This document shows positions 34,440 through 41,276 of a DNA stretch of 42,969 bases, piece by piece (position 1 is the first letter of the stretch; each line of letters starts with the position of its first letter). The stretch is from an uncultured Enterobacterales bacterium. GTDB taxonomy: Bacteria; Pseudomonadota; Gammaproteobacteria; Enterobacterales; Psychrobiaceae. The stretch covers positions 1 to 42,969 of the forward strand of contig CALJMY010000054.1 of NCBI GenBank assembly GCA_937981905.1, in the 5' to 3' direction. The position numbers were made by a program, and so were the translations under genes. The notes under the pieces are model-generated. The model made no database searches, was not told where the DNA came from, and saw nothing but the letters and a program-made list of their open reading frames with translations.

Positions 34440-34442
34440 TGT

Positions 34443-34462
34443 CATGAGTCTATAGACTCATG
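34443..34462. repeat. Perfect 20-bp palindrome after gnd
   Basis: CATGAGTCTATAGACTCATG starts four bases after the gnd stop, just before the terminator hairpin. It may help fold or protect the transcript end. Confidence 0.7.
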
Positions 34463-34467
34463 AATAT

Positions 34468-34508
34468 AAAAAAAGCCGCTATATCAATTTGATATAGCGG
34501 CTTTTTTA
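34468..34508. terminator. Bidirectional terminator between gnd and cydB
   Basis: Stem AAAAAGCCGCTATATCAA / TTGATATAGCGGCTTTTT with A and T tracts on both sides, between convergent genes. Confidence 0.92.
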
Positions 34509-34524
34509 TTTTAGATATTAATGT

Positions 34525-35532
34525 TTAATAATACTGTAAAGGTGACACTTTACCCCAAAATACTTTATAAGAATAAATTGTATATAAAATAATGGTAGGT
34601 ATAACAATCATCGCACCCCATAACAAAAAGTTAAGTGATTGTGGTGCTGCAACTGCTTCCCAGATAGTTAATGTCCCTGGCACAATGTAAGGAAAGAAAC
34701 TTAATCCTATTCCTCCAAAACACAGGATAAAAATAATAGTGGTTAGTACGAAAGGTGTCCAACATCGTTGATCGTCATTCGCATCAATACTTTTTCTAGT
34801 TATCATCTTATTAATTTCAAATAATGCTATACCAAAACATACAGCACATAATATTGGTAAGCTCCAAAATATTGGAGAACTTAACCACCGATCAAATACA
34901 GCAGCGTTAGCTAAAGGATTCACAACCGATACAGCTAGAACACCTAAGCCGCTGATAAAAATAGCTTTATGAAACCATTTTATTGAACGCATTTGTAGTT
35001 CACCTTCACATTTCATAACTAACCATGCCGCACCAATTAATGTGTATGCGATTGCGACACCAACGGCACTTAATAAACTAAAACCTATTCCTATGGCGCT
35101 TTGGTCAAATCCAACAATAAATTGACCTAACATGTAACCCTGACTTAAAGATGCAAATAAAGAACCAAATTTAAAGGCTTTATTCCACAAAGGTTTATGA
35201 GTAAAAACAGCTTTAGCTCTAAAATCAAAGGCAATTCCTCTTAAGATCAAACTTATGAGTAACACTAGTGTAGGAATATATAATGCCTTAAATACAATAG
35301 AGTGGGCTTCTGGAAAAGCAATAAGTAATAGACCAATTGCCATCACTAACCATGTTTCGTTAGCGTCCCAAAAAGGGCCGATAGAAGCAATCATAATATC
35401 TGCTTGTTTGTCATCGTTTAAAGGCATTAGCATGCCTACACCTAAATCGTAACCATCTAAGATGGCATAAAGCAGAACAGTTAATGCCATTAATCCGACA
35501 TAGATGACTGCTAAAGTATCTTTATCAAACAT
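34525..35532 (-). CDS. cydB: Cytochrome bd-type quinol oxidase subunit II
   Basis: Structural membrane subunit of the bd oxidase. It has about eight to nine helices. The N-terminus has the family signature LYAILDGYDLGVGMLMPL, and ETWLVMAIGLLLIAFPEAHSIVF follows. At 335 residues it is slightly shorter than E. coli CydB (~379). It starts one base after the cydA stop, showing translational coupling. No CydX-like small gene can be found between its stop and the terminator. Confidence 0.93.
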   Translation of the reverse strand: MFDKDTLAVIYVGLMALTVLLYAILDGYDLGVGMLMPLNDDKQADIMIASIGPFWDANETWLVMAIGLLLIAFPEAHSIVFKALYIPTLVLLISLILRGIAFDFRAKAVFTHKPLWNKAFKFGSLFASLSQGYMLGQFIVGFDQSAIGIGFSLLSAVGVAIAYTLIGAAWLVMKCEGELQMRSIKWFHKAIFISGLGVLAVSVVNPLANAAVFDRWLSSPIFWSLPILCAVCFGIALFEINKMITRKSIDANDDQRCWTPFVLTTIIFILCFGGIGLSFFPYIVPGTLTIWEAVAAPQSLNFLLWGAMIVIPTIILYTIYSYKVFWGKVSPLQYY

Positions 35533-35533
35533 A

Positions 35534-36907
35534 TTAAACCTCGTTACTTTGTTTTGGAGCTATTTTATGGGGGCCATAATATTCATCTTGGCTATCATCT
35601 ATTTCTTCAATTTCAATGGCACGTTTCGCCATCGTAAGTAATGTATGTAGATATGCCCACATTACTAAAACATATATGATTAAATATGCGATTAAAGAGA
35701 ATAAAACATTACCTGATGCAATATCGGTTGCCGCATCTTTAACTGTTAATACGCCAGTTACAAGCCAAGGTTGACGACCAATTTCGGTAACATACCATCC
35801 AGCCAATGTGGCTACCCAACCAGAGAATGTCATCACAACTAACACGCGTAATAACCAACGTGGCAATTCTTTTTTACGTGCCAGAATTATCCGAGAAACC
35901 CAAGAAACGGTTAACATTAAGAACCCTAGTCCAACCATAATTCTAAATGCATAAAATAGTGGGGCAACTGGAGGATGATTTCCTTTAAACTCATTTAATC
36001 CTTTAATTTCACCGTTAACATCATGGGTAAGAATTAAACTCGCTAAATTAGGCACAGCTATTTCAAAATGATTTTGACGATTCTCTTCATCAACTACAGC
36101 AAATAGTAAAAGGGGAACGCCTTCTTTTGTGTCCCATACGCCTTCCATTGCCGCTATTTTTTGTGGTTGATGCTCTAACGTGTTTAGCCCATGTAAATCA
36201 CCAACATATACTTGAGTTACCGTTAATATCATCGCCGCAGATAAACTGATTTTTAATGCTTTATAAGGAGCACGTTTGTTATCACCTTTTAATAAACGAT
36301 AAGCACTGATGCCAGCAATTAAGAATGACGCCGTTAAACCAGATGCCACTAACATATGTGTCAATCGATAAGGAAATGACGGATTAAAGATTATTGCAAA
36401 CCAATCAGTTGGGTAAGCAACACCATCAATCATTTCAAACCCTTGAGGCGTCTGCATCCAAGAGTTTAATGCTAATATCCAAAATGCTGATAATGTTGTA
36501 CCAAAAGCAACAATAAAAGTAGCCATTGTATGGACAAAAGGAGGTACACGTTTAATACCAAACAACATAATGCCAAGAAATGAAGCTTCTAAGAAAAATG
36601 CAGTTAGTACTTCGTATCCCAATAATGGACCAGCGATATTACCTACTGTTTCCATGAATTTTGGCCAATTGGTGCCAAACTGAAATGACATAGTAACGCC
36701 AGTTACTACACCGATAGCGAATGTTAGGGCAAATATTTTTACCCAAAAACGATACATACGCATCCAAATTGGATCATTTGATATATTGAACCGTATTTTG
36801 AAATACACCAAAAACCAACTTAACGCGATAGTAATAGTTGGAAATAAAATGTGGAAACTAATGTTTGCAGCAAACTGCATACGAGAGAGCATTAATGTTT
36901 CTAACAT
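35534..36907 (-). CDS. cydA: Cytochrome bd-type quinol oxidase subunit I, short Q-loop
   Basis: Catalytic subunit with hemes b558, b595 and d; oxidises quinol and reduces oxygen without pumping protons. Signatures are SRMQFAANISFHILFPT (His ligand of b595/d), the Q-loop QPQKIAAMEGVWDT with the conserved Lys and Glu, and GWYVTEIGRQPW. At 457 residues it lacks the ~65-residue extension of the E. coli Q-loop: the text passes quickly from GLNEF to PPVAPLFYAFRIMVG. This places it with the short-loop, often cyanide-insensitive (CioA-type) enzymes. Sensitivity itself cannot be deduced. It is preceded ten bases upstream by a GbsR-type regulator gene. Confidence 0.94.
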   Translation of the reverse strand: MLETLMLSRMQFAANISFHILFPTITIALSWFLVYFKIRFNISNDPIWMRMYRFWVKIFALTFAIGVVTGVTMSFQFGTNWPKFMETVGNIAGPLLGYEVLTAFFLEASFLGIMLFGIKRVPPFVHTMATFIVAFGTTLSAFWILALNSWMQTPQGFEMIDGVAYPTDWFAIIFNPSFPYRLTHMLVASGLTASFLIAGISAYRLLKGDNKRAPYKALKISLSAAMILTVTQVYVGDLHGLNTLEHQPQKIAAMEGVWDTKEGVPLLLFAVVDEENRQNHFEIAVPNLASLILTHDVNGEIKGLNEFKGNHPPVAPLFYAFRIMVGLGFLMLTVSWVSRIILARKKELPRWLLRVLVVMTFSGWVATLAGWYVTEIGRQPWLVTGVLTVKDAATDIASGNVLFSLIAYLIIYVLVMWAYLHTLLTMAKRAIEIEEIDDSQDEYYGPHKIAPKQSNEV

Positions 36908-36916
36908 GACTAACTC

Positions 36917-37465
36917 CTATCTATTGTTACTTAATAATTTGTCTTTAATATCTAGAACCTTACTAACTCCTGAACCGAGTTTCATTAAAGTATGTAGGTT
37001 ATCTGGATTCATCGTTTGTAATTCACTAGCCCATTGGGTAATTGTTTCTAATAAGTCGTGTATTTCTAACATCTGTTGATGAGCATATGTTTCTTGCTTC
37101 GTTATCGGCTCATCTAACAAGTTGTCACGAAGTAGAGAAAGTGTAGGGTCAACTTCTCGTTTACGGCGCTCTTCGAATACTCTAATAGCCATATCCCAAA
37201 TAGGTCCTGCTGGAGCATAGTATTCTTTTCTATCTTTAGGTTTGTGAGTGATACTAATTAAACGCCAAGACTGGAGTTCTTTAATACCCATACTTACATT
37301 ACCACGTGAAATATTAAGTGATTCTGCTAGTTCTACAGCGGTTAATGGCTCTTCACTAATAATCATCAATCCATACATTTGACCAACCGTACGATTAAAG
37401 CCCCAACGACTACCCATTTCACCGCAATGCATTACAAATGATTCTATTTTTGCTGCAAGTTTCAT
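36917..37465 (-). CDS. GbsR/MarR-family transcriptional regulator of cydAB
   Basis: A 182-residue DNA-binding protein with the GbsR-type winged helix: CGEMGSRWGFNRTVGQMYGL, then LTAVELAESLNISRGNVSM, GIKELQSWRLI and DRKEYY in the wing. The C-terminal half is helical (EERRKREVDPTLSLLRDN) and may dimerise or sense a signal. I choose the ATG at 37465 (MKLAAKIESFVM); an upstream in-frame start would run through a perfect palindrome. It is the first gene of an operon with cydA and cydB. It likely controls its own operon through the palindrome at 37485; the signal is unknown. Confidence 0.85.
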   Translation of the reverse strand: MKLAAKIESFVMHCGEMGSRWGFNRTVGQMYGLMIISEEPLTAVELAESLNISRGNVSMGIKELQSWRLISITHKPKDRKEYYAPAGPIWDMAIRVFEERRKREVDPTLSLLRDNLLDEPITKQETYAHQQMLEIHDLLETITQWASELQTMNPDNLHTLMKLGSGVSKVLDIKDKLLSNNR

Positions 37466-37484
37466 AATAATTGTATCTTCTGAA

Positions 37485-37504
37485 GTTTCAGTAATTACTG
37501 AAAC
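37485..37504. promoter_or_regulatory. Perfect 20-bp palindrome, probable operator of the regulator-cydAB operon
   Basis: GTTTCAGTAATTACTGAAAC lies 20 bp before the regulator start. A half-site TGAAAC recurs at 37527-37532. The remaining stretch up to 37812 is AT-rich and holds no gene I can support. Confidence 0.65.
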
Positions 37505-37812
37505 TATACACATTCATACAACTAATTGAAACTAATAATGGAAATAATTGAACAAGGAGCCATGATAGGTATGTAGCAAAATAGATTAAAATTAGATCAA
37601 GTCTGATGTAGATACAAGGGTTGGTAATAATACGAAAGGATTAGTTTATATTGTGTTTTACTAGCAGTTTTAGGAGAGATTTTGAAAGAATTTATAAGAA
37701 TAGTTATTAAATTAATATAAAGATTAAGTGTTAAAAATCATCGATATAAAATTTAATGGGTAGTGGTAATAAACAATACGATCGTATATCACCACGCCAT
37801 GAATATTCAACG

Positions 37813-38349
37813 TTAGTGAATTAAATGCTTGGCCATTTCTTTAGCAATTAACGCTGAATGTTTAATTCCACGTGTATGAGCCATAACAATAGCACCTTCA
37901 ATCAACAAGCCAATCTGATTGGCTTTCATATCGTCTTTAATCGTTAATTCGTTATTAATTAAATCTACAATAGCTTGTTTATGTTCAAGTGATATTTTAT
38001 TGATAGGATCAAGGACATTAGTGTACTCAGCTGTCGCGTTAATAAAATTACAACCGAAGAAATTATCACTATTAAACCAGTGATCGAATGTATCAAAGAT
38101 AGCTAAAACTCCAGATTCCCCTTTGTCATGAGCGTCATCAATGTTTGTTTGAATCATTTCTAACACTTGTGTATGTCTCTGTTGTAAAACAGCTAAAATT
38201 AATTCATCTTTACTTCTAAAGTGTTTATATAACGTTGCTTTAGATACTTTAGATTCTGCTAAAATCAAATCAATTCCTGTGGCGTGATAACCATGCTGGT
38301 TAAATAACAATAATGCCGTGTCGACTAAATGTTGCTTTCTTGGTTGCAT
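37813..38349 (-). CDS. TetR/AcrR-family regulator
   Basis: A 178-residue repressor. The N-terminal helix-turn-helix reads LVDTALLLFNQHGYHATGID then SKATLYKHFRSKDELI. The ligand domain contains FFGCNFINATAEY, a block with a conserved Cys found in several redox- or electrophile-responding TetR proteins, though this is not proof. It is divergent from the VOC/PNPOx gene pair, with two operator-like repeats between them, so it most likely represses that pair and itself. Confidence 0.85.
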   Translation of the reverse strand: MQPRKQHLVDTALLLFNQHGYHATGIDLILAESKVSKATLYKHFRSKDELILAVLQQRHTQVLEMIQTNIDDAHDKGESGVLAIFDTFDHWFNSDNFFGCNFINATAEYTNVLDPINKISLEHKQAIVDLINNELTIKDDMKANQIGLLIEGAIVMAHTRGIKHSALIAKEMAKHLIH

Positions 38350-38420
38350 ATTATTTACCTTTTCAATTGTGCTTTAAGTTTAACAATAGATGATTATTAG
38401 CAAAGTATACCAATTTTAAC

Positions 38421-38450
38421 TTGACGTAAACAGTTCTGTTCACCTATTAT
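38421..38450 (+). promoter_or_regulatory. Promoter of the VOC-PNPOx pair
   Basis: TTGACG (38421-38426) and TATTAT (38445-38450) with an 18-base spacer. An operator-like repeat fills the spacer. Confidence 0.6.
38426..38444. promoter_or_regulatory. Operator-like repeat, copy 1
   Basis: GTAAACAGTTCTGTTCACC with palindromic core ACAG-TT-CTGT. Overlaps the promoter spacer. Confidence 0.6.
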
Positions 38451-38455
38451 TACTA

Positions 38456-38474
38456 GGTAGACAGACCTGTTTAC
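38456..38474. promoter_or_regulatory. Operator-like repeat, copy 2
   Basis: GGTAGACAGACCTGTTTAC, inverted relative to copy 1, core ACAG-AC-CTGT. Centre is 31 bp, about three helical turns, from copy 1. Confidence 0.6.
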
Positions 38475-38518
38475 TTATGTCGAACATAAAATTAAACGTA
38501 AAATAAAGGTTATCCATT

Positions 38519-38941
38519 ATGTGCGCAACAACTAATTCAGCAAAAAGTATCACTACTTTAGGTATTCATCATCTAGGTTTAACAGTTCCTGATATTGTAG
38601 AAACTTCACGTTTTTTCATTGAAGAAATGAATTTCAACCAAGTAGGTGAAGTACCTGAATATCCGGCGGTTTTCATCTCAGACGGTACTGTTATGTTAAC
38701 ATTGTGGCAAGTTAAAAATGCTGACAATATGGTGCCTTTTGACCGTACAAAAAATATTGGTTTACATCATTTTGCGCTCAAAATTGAAAATCTAGAAAAA
38801 TTGAAAGACTTACATAAACATCTATTAACACTTGATAATGTCGAGATTGAATTTGCCCCAGAACAACTAGGTGACTTACCAATTCATCATATGATGTGTA
38901 CGATTCCGGGTGGAGTAAGACTAGAATTAATTTGTGACTAA
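38519..38941 (+). CDS. VOC-family (glyoxalase/bleomycin resistance) protein
   Basis: A 140-residue cytoplasmic protein with two beta-alpha-beta-beta-beta modules. Metal-binding candidates are the His in GIHHLGLTV, the His in GLHHFALKI and the Glu in VRLELICD. These fit the lyase or dioxygenase-like VOC families; the reaction cannot be named. AAGG lies upstream of the ATG. It is followed 12 bp later by the PNPOx-fold gene and is divergent from a TetR gene, which suggests an inducible detoxification or small-molecule response. Confidence 0.88.
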   Translation: MCATTNSAKSITTLGIHHLGLTVPDIVETSRFFIEEMNFNQVGEVPEYPAVFISDGTVMLTLWQVKNADNMVPFDRTKNIGLHHFALKIENLEKLKDLHKHLLTLDNVEIEFAPEQLGDLPIHHMMCTIPGGVRLELICD

Positions 38942-38953
38942 AGGGCTATTTAT

Positions 38954-39895
38954 ATGAATGAGTTAATTAGTAAATCAATGAGTGATGATCAAATAAATGT
39001 TTGGCACGAAGGTGAATTAGCTGTTCAAAAAATGGCTGGCACGGACGAACGAATGGCCGAAATTGGCCCTAAATTTATACGTGAGTTTATGCCAGATCAA
39101 CATCGTGCGTTCTTCCAATCATTGTCTATGTTATTTATTGGTTATACTGATTACTCTTCAAATATTTATAGCAGCATATTATTTGGCGACCCTGGATTTA
39201 TTCAATCGCCAACACAAACAACCTTAATCATTAATACGCAACAAACAATGGGTGACTTAGTAATAGGGGATCTTAGTGTAGGTGATAGAATTGGTCTTGT
39301 TGGTGTTGTTTTTGAAACAAAAAGGCGTAACCGCGTTAACGCCGTAGTTACTGATATTAATCAAAAAAATATTGAACTGAGGATTTTACAAAGTTACGGA
39401 AATTGCCCTAAATATATTCAACCACGAACATTTAAAGCAAATCCTTATTATGGTAATTTTTCATCATCAACTTACAAGTCATTAAGTCACGATGATAAAA
39501 AATTAGTGAGTAATGCTGATGTTTTCTTTATCGCCAGTAGTTTTAACGATGATAGAAGCTTAAATAATCGCGGTACTGATAACTCTCATCGAGGTGGTGA
39601 ACGAGGTTTTATTACCATCAACGACGATGGACAATTATTAATTGATGATTATTTCGGTAATGGATTTTTTAATACAATGGGTAACTTATTTAAAAACCCA
39701 GTAGCTAGTTTGTTATTTTGTGATTGGAATAGCGGTCACGTTTTACAAATCACGGTCACTAGCGAAGTACTATGGGCGGATGAAAATACGACTTATAGTC
39801 CAAACCAACAAAGTAATCAGAGGATTCTACGTTTTACTCCGATTAAAGTGCAGCAGATAAAAAACGGTTTAGCGCATCTTGAGATAAACCATTAA
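38954..39895 (+). CDS. Pyridoxamine 5'-phosphate oxidase-fold flavin-binding protein
   Basis: A 313-residue protein with a split-barrel FMN-binding fold. Visible features are FFQSLSMLFIGYTDYSS (first barrel strands), GDPGFIQSPTQTTLII, GDRIGLVGVVFETKRRNRVN and, in the second half, FIASSFND...HRGGERGFI and GNGFFNTMGNLFKNPVASLLF. The last blocks resemble the phosphate- and flavin-contacting regions of this clan. It is cotranscribed with the VOC gene. Such larger proteins are usually labelled pyridoxamine 5'-phosphate oxidase family; they are not PdxH, and their substrate is unknown. AAGGG lies before the ATG. Confidence 0.82.
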   Translation: MNELISKSMSDDQINVWHEGELAVQKMAGTDERMAEIGPKFIREFMPDQHRAFFQSLSMLFIGYTDYSSNIYSSILFGDPGFIQSPTQTTLIINTQQTMGDLVIGDLSVGDRIGLVGVVFETKRRNRVNAVVTDINQKNIELRILQSYGNCPKYIQPRTFKANPYYGNFSSSTYKSLSHDDKKLVSNADVFFIASSFNDDRSLNNRGTDNSHRGGERGFITINDDGQLLIDDYFGNGFFNTMGNLFKNPVASLLFCDWNSGHVLQITVTSEVLWADENTTYSPNQQSNQRILRFTPIKVQQIKNGLAHLEINH

Positions 39896-39920: not shown

Positions 39921-41186
39921 TTAAACCTTTCTAAGTAAACCTGATCTTGCTCGGTCTTTAATATTACTTTGAATGTAATTTTTATCGGTTGTTTCTGAAG
40001 AAGCGTGACCTAGTTCATCGGCGAGATGCTTCAAAGGACGACTGCCAGCATCTTCAGTCGCTCCAGTATGTCGTAACCAATGAGTAGTCGCCGCCATTAA
40101 GTAATTAGCGTCGTCATCAAAATCGTCACGTTGCAGTGCATTAATAGCCAAATCAAAGCTTTGTTCAACAATACGTCTAATTTGACGAGAAGTTAAATTC
40201 CCATTACCCCGTAACTTATTAAGCATTGATATATCTTCATCTGGTGAGGGTAGGGAAGACAACCCTCGATAAACTCGGTACCTTTTTAGATATGGCATAT
40301 AGGCCGAAGGTACCGTTACATCTCTGATTTTATTACCTTTACCAAACACTGTTAGATACCAAAAACCGTCACTATCGACTGAAAAATCAGACATGGTTGG
40401 TGACCATTTGGCATGTTGTGATAATTCAGAAACGCGTAAATATAAACTTTTTAGCGTTGCTACAATGAATAAATTACGTTCAAAAGCAGGGTCTTTATCT
40501 GCCGTATCTCTAGTAATACCTAACACATATTCCCATTGTAATTGGCTTAGTGTGTCTGGTGTTTTACGTTGAACTTGTTTTATTAAGTAAGGACAGCTTT
40601 TCTTAACAACGGGCACATAATTTTTATCACAAACTTCTTCCATTTGTGCATGCTGATAGAGAACACTTAATACAGTAAATGTTGAGACTAACGATTCTTG
40701 TGATGGTCGATACTCATCAATAACAGCCAGTTTAAGTGGATCTTTTTTAGTGAGGGATTTAGCGATTTTAACGACAAACGGGCGCCATTTAATATTTGAT
40801 AATAGTTGACCATTTTTAATAACAAAGCGTTGTTGAACTGAAGTACCAATCCAAGATTTATCAGGTTGATAGACAAAATCAATATACGATTCAATGTCTT
40901 TACGAGTAACTTCAAATATTCCTTTTTCGTGATGTTGCCAGCAATATAAGCACCAGCGCTCAACTTCATTGCGAAACCTAAGATAGGTACCATTTGATTT
41001 ACGTCCCATTAAATAAAGAAATTCCATCACAAACGATAATTCAGTATTTGCAGTAGGAACCTTCGATTCAATTGACATTAGAAACGAATGGAGCTGTGGA
41101 TAGTCATCATGCAAGTCATTATTAGTGAGTGAACGACGTTGTGATTTCACATTATCAAAAGTATCGATTAATGGTGTAACTAACAT
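39921..41186 (-). CDS. Tyrosine recombinase / site-specific integrase
   Basis: A DNA recombinase of about 421 residues. The N-terminal SAM-like core-binding domain covers ~40-150 (TYLRFRNEVERWCLYCWQH). The catalytic domain holds the expected residues: Arg in LYLRVSELSQ, Lys in FGKGNKIRDV, HxxR in THWLRHTGAT, His in ELGHASSETT and the nucleophile Tyr in DKNYIQS. The active site looks complete. The start is uncertain: the ATG at 41186 has no good ribosome site, and the frame runs open to 41276 through a hairpin. It lies at the border of chromosomal genes and unexplained DNA, so it may belong to an integrated element. No tRNA is next to it. Confidence 0.88.
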   Translation of the reverse strand: MLVTPLIDTFDNVKSQRRSLTNNDLHDDYPQLHSFLMSIESKVPTANTELSFVMEFLYLMGRKSNGTYLRFRNEVERWCLYCWQHHEKGIFEVTRKDIESYIDFVYQPDKSWIGTSVQQRFVIKNGQLLSNIKWRPFVVKIAKSLTKKDPLKLAVIDEYRPSQESLVSTFTVLSVLYQHAQMEEVCDKNYVPVVKKSCPYLIKQVQRKTPDTLSQLQWEYVLGITRDTADKDPAFERNLFIVATLKSLYLRVSELSQHAKWSPTMSDFSVDSDGFWYLTVFGKGNKIRDVTVPSAYMPYLKRYRVYRGLSSLPSPDEDISMLNKLRGNGNLTSRQIRRIVEQSFDLAINALQRDDFDDDANYLMAATTHWLRHTGATEDAGSRPLKHLADELGHASSETTDKNYIQSNIKDRARSGLLRKV

Positions 41187-41220
41187 ATCTATATTAAAGC
41201 CAATATCTAAAAGCTTTATT

Positions 41221-41270
41221 ATAATAAAAAACACCACTATGTCCAATACTCTTAAGTATTGGACATAGTG
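41221..41270 (-). terminator. Perfect 16-bp hairpin with T tract upstream of the integrase
   Basis: Arms CACTATGTCCAATACT / AGTATTGGACATAGTG around a four-base loop (41235-41270). On the minus strand it is followed by GTGTTTTTTATTAT, giving a terminator or attenuator shape directly in the integrase leader. Confidence 0.7.
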
Positions 41271-41276
41271 TAGCAA

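Follow-up and report, generated by a model that had tools for sequence, protein, structure and literature searches.

A CydE/CioR-type regulator and its predicted operator at a cytochrome bd operon of an uncultured Enterobacterales bacterium, and probable relocation of the operator among quinol oxidase genes of relatives

The 42,969 nucleotides analysed here (the window) very probably contain a cydEAB (cioRAB) operon that is autorepressed by a MarR protein of the GbsR subfamily at a 22-bp inverted repeat, an inducer raising the level of the bd oxidase. Gene order, protein family, conservation of the operator and its link to the regulator were observed in the comparisons described below. A dimer of the regulator would occupy the inverted repeat immediately upstream of its own gene, next to or over the promoter, and would repress the regulator-cydA-cydB transcript. 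An inducing condition would release it and lead to more short-Q-loop, CIO-type bd quinol oxidase, which may sustain respiration while cyanide, sulfide, NO or metals block the haem-copper oxidases. Binding, footprint, repression and protection by the oxidase have been demonstrated by others in orthologous systems; we infer binding and repression in the window organism, the dimeric state and the exact promoter overlap. The locus is one more operon of a published type and confirms the operator across Gammaproteobacteria. The following features were assigned:

36917..37465, minus strand: cydE/cioR-type MarR regulator of the GbsR subfamily, 182 aa (MarR_2, CudC/GbsR model, 1ku9, AF2/Foldseek)
35534..36907, minus strand: cydA/cioA, bd oxidase subunit I, 457 aa, short Q-loop type (PF01654, E 3.6e-162)
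34525..35532, minus strand: cydB/cioB, bd oxidase subunit II, 335 aa (PF02322, E 1.1e-78; TIGR00203 above cut-off)
34469..34507, no strand: terminator-like hairpin 3' of cydB (18-pair stem plus T run)
37484..37505, no strand: predicted operator, perfect 22-bp inverted repeat AGTTTCAGTAATTACTGAAACT (conserved in relatives; matches the CydE footprint)
37504..37509, minus strand: possible -10 element TATAGT at the outer edge of the operator, as read from the sequence
37517..37530, minus strand: TTCAATTAGTTGTA, a degraded element at the position of the FNR-like box TTGATNNNNATCAA of relatives (5/10 match)

On the minus strand, the order is operator, regulator, 9 bp, cydA, cydB and terminator-like hairpin, the 9 bp separating the regulator stop codon from the cydA ATG on the same strand. 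An earlier interpretation (the sequence-only reading) had placed the regulator ten bases before cydA and had called it fused into the operon. The operon is real; the gap is one base shorter, and the arrangement is that of an operon with no gene fusion. The hairpin is common to cydB and a convergent gnd-like gene. The neighbours of the regulator are cydAB and not genes for uptake or synthesis of osmoprotectants. Subunit I aligns over nearly its whole length with 5doq, the Geobacillus-type enzyme, which has a short Q-loop. At the Q-loop, between residues 308 and 311 of the window subunit, the E. coli enzymes bd-I and bd-II are longer by about 65 residues. The window oxidase is thus of the short-Q-loop (CIO) type, a cyanide-resistant kind of bd quinol oxidase. 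On the other side of the regulator, window positions 37813-39895 contain a TetR-type regulator, from which a glyoxalase-fold gene and a PPOX-type flavoprotein-like gene diverge. Next to these genes, an ORF at 39921-41276 resembles a tyrosine recombinase/integrase (by eye, HWLRHTGAT motif), which hints at the border of a mobile element.

The regulator is a MarR-fold protein of the GbsR subfamily. Profile search yielded a MarR_2 match with E 3.6e-8, and the CudC/GbsR model matched with E 8.6e-12, which is under the model's own cut-off. Mj223 (1ku9) was found by sequence with E 8.3e-11. The AF2 model has a pLDDT of 90, and its Foldseek matches are 5jbr, 1ku9 and 4nb5 with TM values of 0.57-0.62 on the query. 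The start codon ATG at 37465 is conserved among relatives. A longer ORF with its start at 37513, which would cross the palindrome, was rejected because the conservation among relatives begins only at the ATG at 37465. With the CudC/GbsR model, no second GbsR-type gene was detected in the genome of the window, whose assembly is approximately 83% complete.

The 20-mer core GTTTCAGTAATTACTGAAAC of the predicted operator spans 37485-37504 and ends 19 bp before the regulator ATG. The sequence-only reading correctly recognized the palindrome as perfect; its extent is 22 bp instead of 20, and the distance had been given as 20 bp. The 43-kb window has just one other perfect palindrome of 16 bp or longer. 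This palindrome, TCATGAGTCTATAGACTCATGA, is also 22 bp long and is located at 34442-34463 between a 6-phosphogluconate dehydrogenase-like gene and the hairpin that follows cydB. In Alishewanella sp. WH16-1, site 1 of CydE has been defined as TTTCAGAAATTTCTGAAA by EMSA with short fragments and by DNase I footprinting (PMC6096048). Comparison of the window site AGTTTCAGTAATTACTGAAACTTCA with the footprinted site 1 TATTTCAGAAATTTCTGAAAGTTCA gave 20 identical positions out of 25, and none of 500 shuffles was as good. Further copies of the 20-mer with up to three mismatches were found neither in the window nor in the 3.1-Mb assembly, and a wider regulon in this genome was therefore rejected. The loose pattern TTTCA-N8-TGAAA occurs at 27 sites of the genome, compared to 13 for a reversed control.

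The search for the palindrome at other regulator-cydAB loci, which the sequence-only reading had proposed, comprised 57 homologous loci (window included) with a short-type cydA directly downstream of the regulator. TTTCA-N8-TGAAA was present in 56 of the 57, matching in 9-10 of 10 positions at a distance of 25-60 bp upstream of the regulator. The loci share common ancestry, so that their counts are not independent trials. Each of the 56 operators scored better than dinucleotide shuffles (p<0.05), and the arms covary, with the flanks AC..GT, AG..CT and AT..AT. The one exception, L089, reads TTACAG..CTGTAA and is changed in both arms. The same reading had regarded absence of palindrome and regulator from most orthologous cydAB loci as evidence against it. 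This was not the case: of the 30 top-ranking cydA loci in the order of the window, 29 have the regulator, and all 28 of these with readable upstream DNA contain the operator; at the remaining regulator locus (L137), which was left out of the operator count, a contig end cuts the upstream DNA. Among 24 loci of the order and class that have a short-type cydA without an adjacent regulator, the operator was found once. This perfect copy (L150:2540-2557) is located directly before cydA in genome G060, for which the class search revealed no such regulator and in which none is detectable beside cydA. The autoregulated switch of the bd oxidase that had been proposed is well supported by the conserved operator, by the conserved operon structure and by orthologous systems in two genera that were tested by footprinting or EMSA.

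Some related regulators and sites are found at non-oxidase genes. The members L093, L096, L098 and L106 of a sister clade (35-43% identity) have DCC-type thiol-disulfide-like, DoxX-like and epimerase-like proteins as neighbours, as judged by eye. In several members of this clade (L095, L105), palindromes such as TTTCTGTAATAACAGAAA resemble the operator but are not the same. Exact copies of TTTCAGTAATTACTGAAA occur at L248:1168-1185 and L249:1196-1213 between two divergent genes, by eye a protease-like gene and a gene for a small membrane protein; this may be a further member of the regulon.

Other possible promoter elements were seen in the window and its relatives. TATAGT likewise precedes the operator in the nearest relatives L001 and L002, and was not picked up by a promoter scan; its overlap with the operator would fit simple steric repression. 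Most close relatives possess the FNR-like box TTGATNNNNATCAA approximately 27 bp before the operator. This box scores 9-10/10 in L001, L002 and most Colwellia loci, compared to 5/10 in the window, where it has been lost. The degraded position is overlapped by the extra TGAAAC half-site (37527-37532) noted in the sequence-only reading. The half-site exists, but it is missing from L001 and L002, and at the window's own frequency one is expected within 150 bp with a chance of approximately 10%; it was therefore rejected as half of a second operator. Conserved elements such as the FNR-like box of the relatives lend some weight to the idea that the palindrome is bound by a different regulator (FNR/CRP or another MarR protein) and that the adjacent GbsR-type gene controls something else. 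This is extremely unlikely, as the palindrome differs from FNR/CRP sites and matches the footprinted CydE site. Moreover, it tracks the regulator to other oxidase genes, as follows.

In the genus of the window, the regulators of four genomes (G444, G461, G476, G504; L196-L199) directly precede a cydA of the long-Q-loop type. They are 63-66% identical, and the operator is located at -34/-35, which suggests that the oxidase was exchanged behind a retained regulator. In many Pseudoalteromonas genomes, a regulator with 68-72% identity has no cydA beside it; the orphan loci that were inspected have an alcohol dehydrogenase-like gene, on the opposite strand, or other genes in their vicinity. In all 18 orphan-regulator genomes of Pseudoalteromonas with a long cydA elsewhere (L172-L177, L200-L211), this unlinked cydA is preceded by the operator at a distance of 47-88 bp, whereas the unlinked long cydA has no operator in all six genomes having the regulator at a short cydAB (Fisher 7e-6, relatedness ignored). 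This contrast, seen within the genus for Pseudoalteromonas sp. G4 (L044, L178), speaks against a different protein acting at the palindrome. G578, another genome with an orphan regulator, lacks a long cydA, and the site is absent at its short cydA (L227).

The operator is also found at genes of a bo3 oxidase, in which cyoA was named from its own sequence and the CyoB-like ORF after it. TTTCA-N8-TGAAA occurs 751-925 bp before cyoA in all 11 orphan-regulator genomes that have cyoA (L254-L264; cyoA counted at ≥79% identity). In the five cyo clusters that were read, the site is approximately 50-105 bp before an ORF of 136-147 codons preceding cyoA, a candidate for the opening gene of the cyo operon. 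In another lineage (L085), 59 bp separate the site TTTCACAAATTTCTGAAA from cyoA downstream, and a regulator of 53% identity is encoded approximately 1.1 kb upstream. In the tree of the regulators, those in cis to a long cydA form one clade (100/99) and most orphans another (100/100), and both sit within a group mainly of regulators in cis to a short cydA. It is plausible, and in our estimate rather likely, that the CydE-type regulator serves as a repressor of quinol oxidases in general and that its operator is transferred among short cyd, long cyd and cyo genes, the Pseudoalteromonas orphan acting in trans on two oxidases. A transfer of this kind between short and long bd oxidases, and probably bo3 oxidases as well, would be new compared to the literature; a search that covered few subscription papers found none on a Pseudoalteromonas GbsR with cytochrome bd, or on cyoA or cydA with this operator. 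The comparison leads to testable predictions as to which oxidases are under the control of each regulator, and points to the relocation of a 20-bp operator as a way in which bacteria may rewire respiration. The question of the inducer becomes narrower as well, because a ligand has to be plausible for both bd and bo3 quinol oxidases.

Published inducer candidates are sulfate and Fe/Zn. They disagree between the two orthologues studied, and may act indirectly. Sulfate was reported to release CydE of Alishewanella (PMC6096048). CioR of Chromobacterium violaceum is released in vitro by 100 µM iron or zinc, which EDTA reverses; cyanide induces cioRAB via CioR, apparently indirectly; neither cyanide nor H2O2 releases CioR in vitro; and DTT does not reverse the inactivation by iron or zinc (PMC11837568). 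The sequence-only reading had considered redox sensing. A direct redox or thiol sensor inactivated by oxidation might use the single cysteine, Cys14, which in many orthologues is part of the highly conserved motif HCGEMGSRWG. This residue is replaced by Phe or Trp in L083, L085, L087, L090, L091, L093, L095, L197 and L198, and some of these regulators share the same operator. A thiol-based mechanism is therefore very unlikely, and the results obtained with DTT, cyanide and H2O2 on CioR also argue against it. A direct response to Fe/Zn via conserved His and Glu residues, which would refine and not exclude autorepression at the 22-bp repeat, is a tentative possibility. The EDTA-reversible release of CioR is in line with it, and the zinc-dependent MarR proteins AdcR and ZitR are weak relatives. 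In 33 homologues, H13, E16 and H74 do not vary and H136 hardly does, which is compatible with a metal site and equally with structural roles; the His residues belong to parts of the protein that are possibly needed for folding or for contact with DNA. Moreover, the metal concentrations were high, and CydE of Alishewanella responded to sulfate instead.

Control of a terminal oxidase by the GbsR family, which the sequence-only reading did not know as established, has already been published (CydE 2018, PMC6096048; CioR 2025, PMC11837568), so that this statement is out of date. A phylogenomic survey found 34 of 179 gbsR genes adjoining cytochrome bd genes (PMC6207618). The closest likeness is to the CydE-CydAB system of Alishewanella, in which CydE is co-transcribed with cydAB and represses cydEAB (PMC6096048): there, too, a GbsR-type gene directly precedes cydAB in one operon, and site 1 is nearly the same palindrome. 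The two differ in the second footprinted site GGGATGCGCATATGCAAAT, which has no counterpart upstream in the window (best match 10/19, shuffles doing as well). Repression could therefore differ in detail; GGGATGCGCATATGCAAAT was not treated as defining, because it was reported in one strain only. The CioR-CioAB system of Chromobacterium has the same gene order and a short-Q-loop oxidase, and direct repression of cioRAB was demonstrated there by EMSA and by derepression in a ΔcioR strain (PMC11837568). In contrast, Chromobacterium belongs to another bacterial class, and its repressor is released by Fe/Zn in vitro and its operon induced by cyanide. The Bacillus proteins GbsR, OpuAR and OpcR are repressors of the same MarR subfamily with a Mj223-like fold, but control osmoprotectant genes. 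CydE is reported to have only about 19% similarity to this group and is said to be without the aromatic cage by which GbsR and OpuAR respond to choline/betaine (PMC6207618). The locus in the window belongs to the CydE/CioR type.
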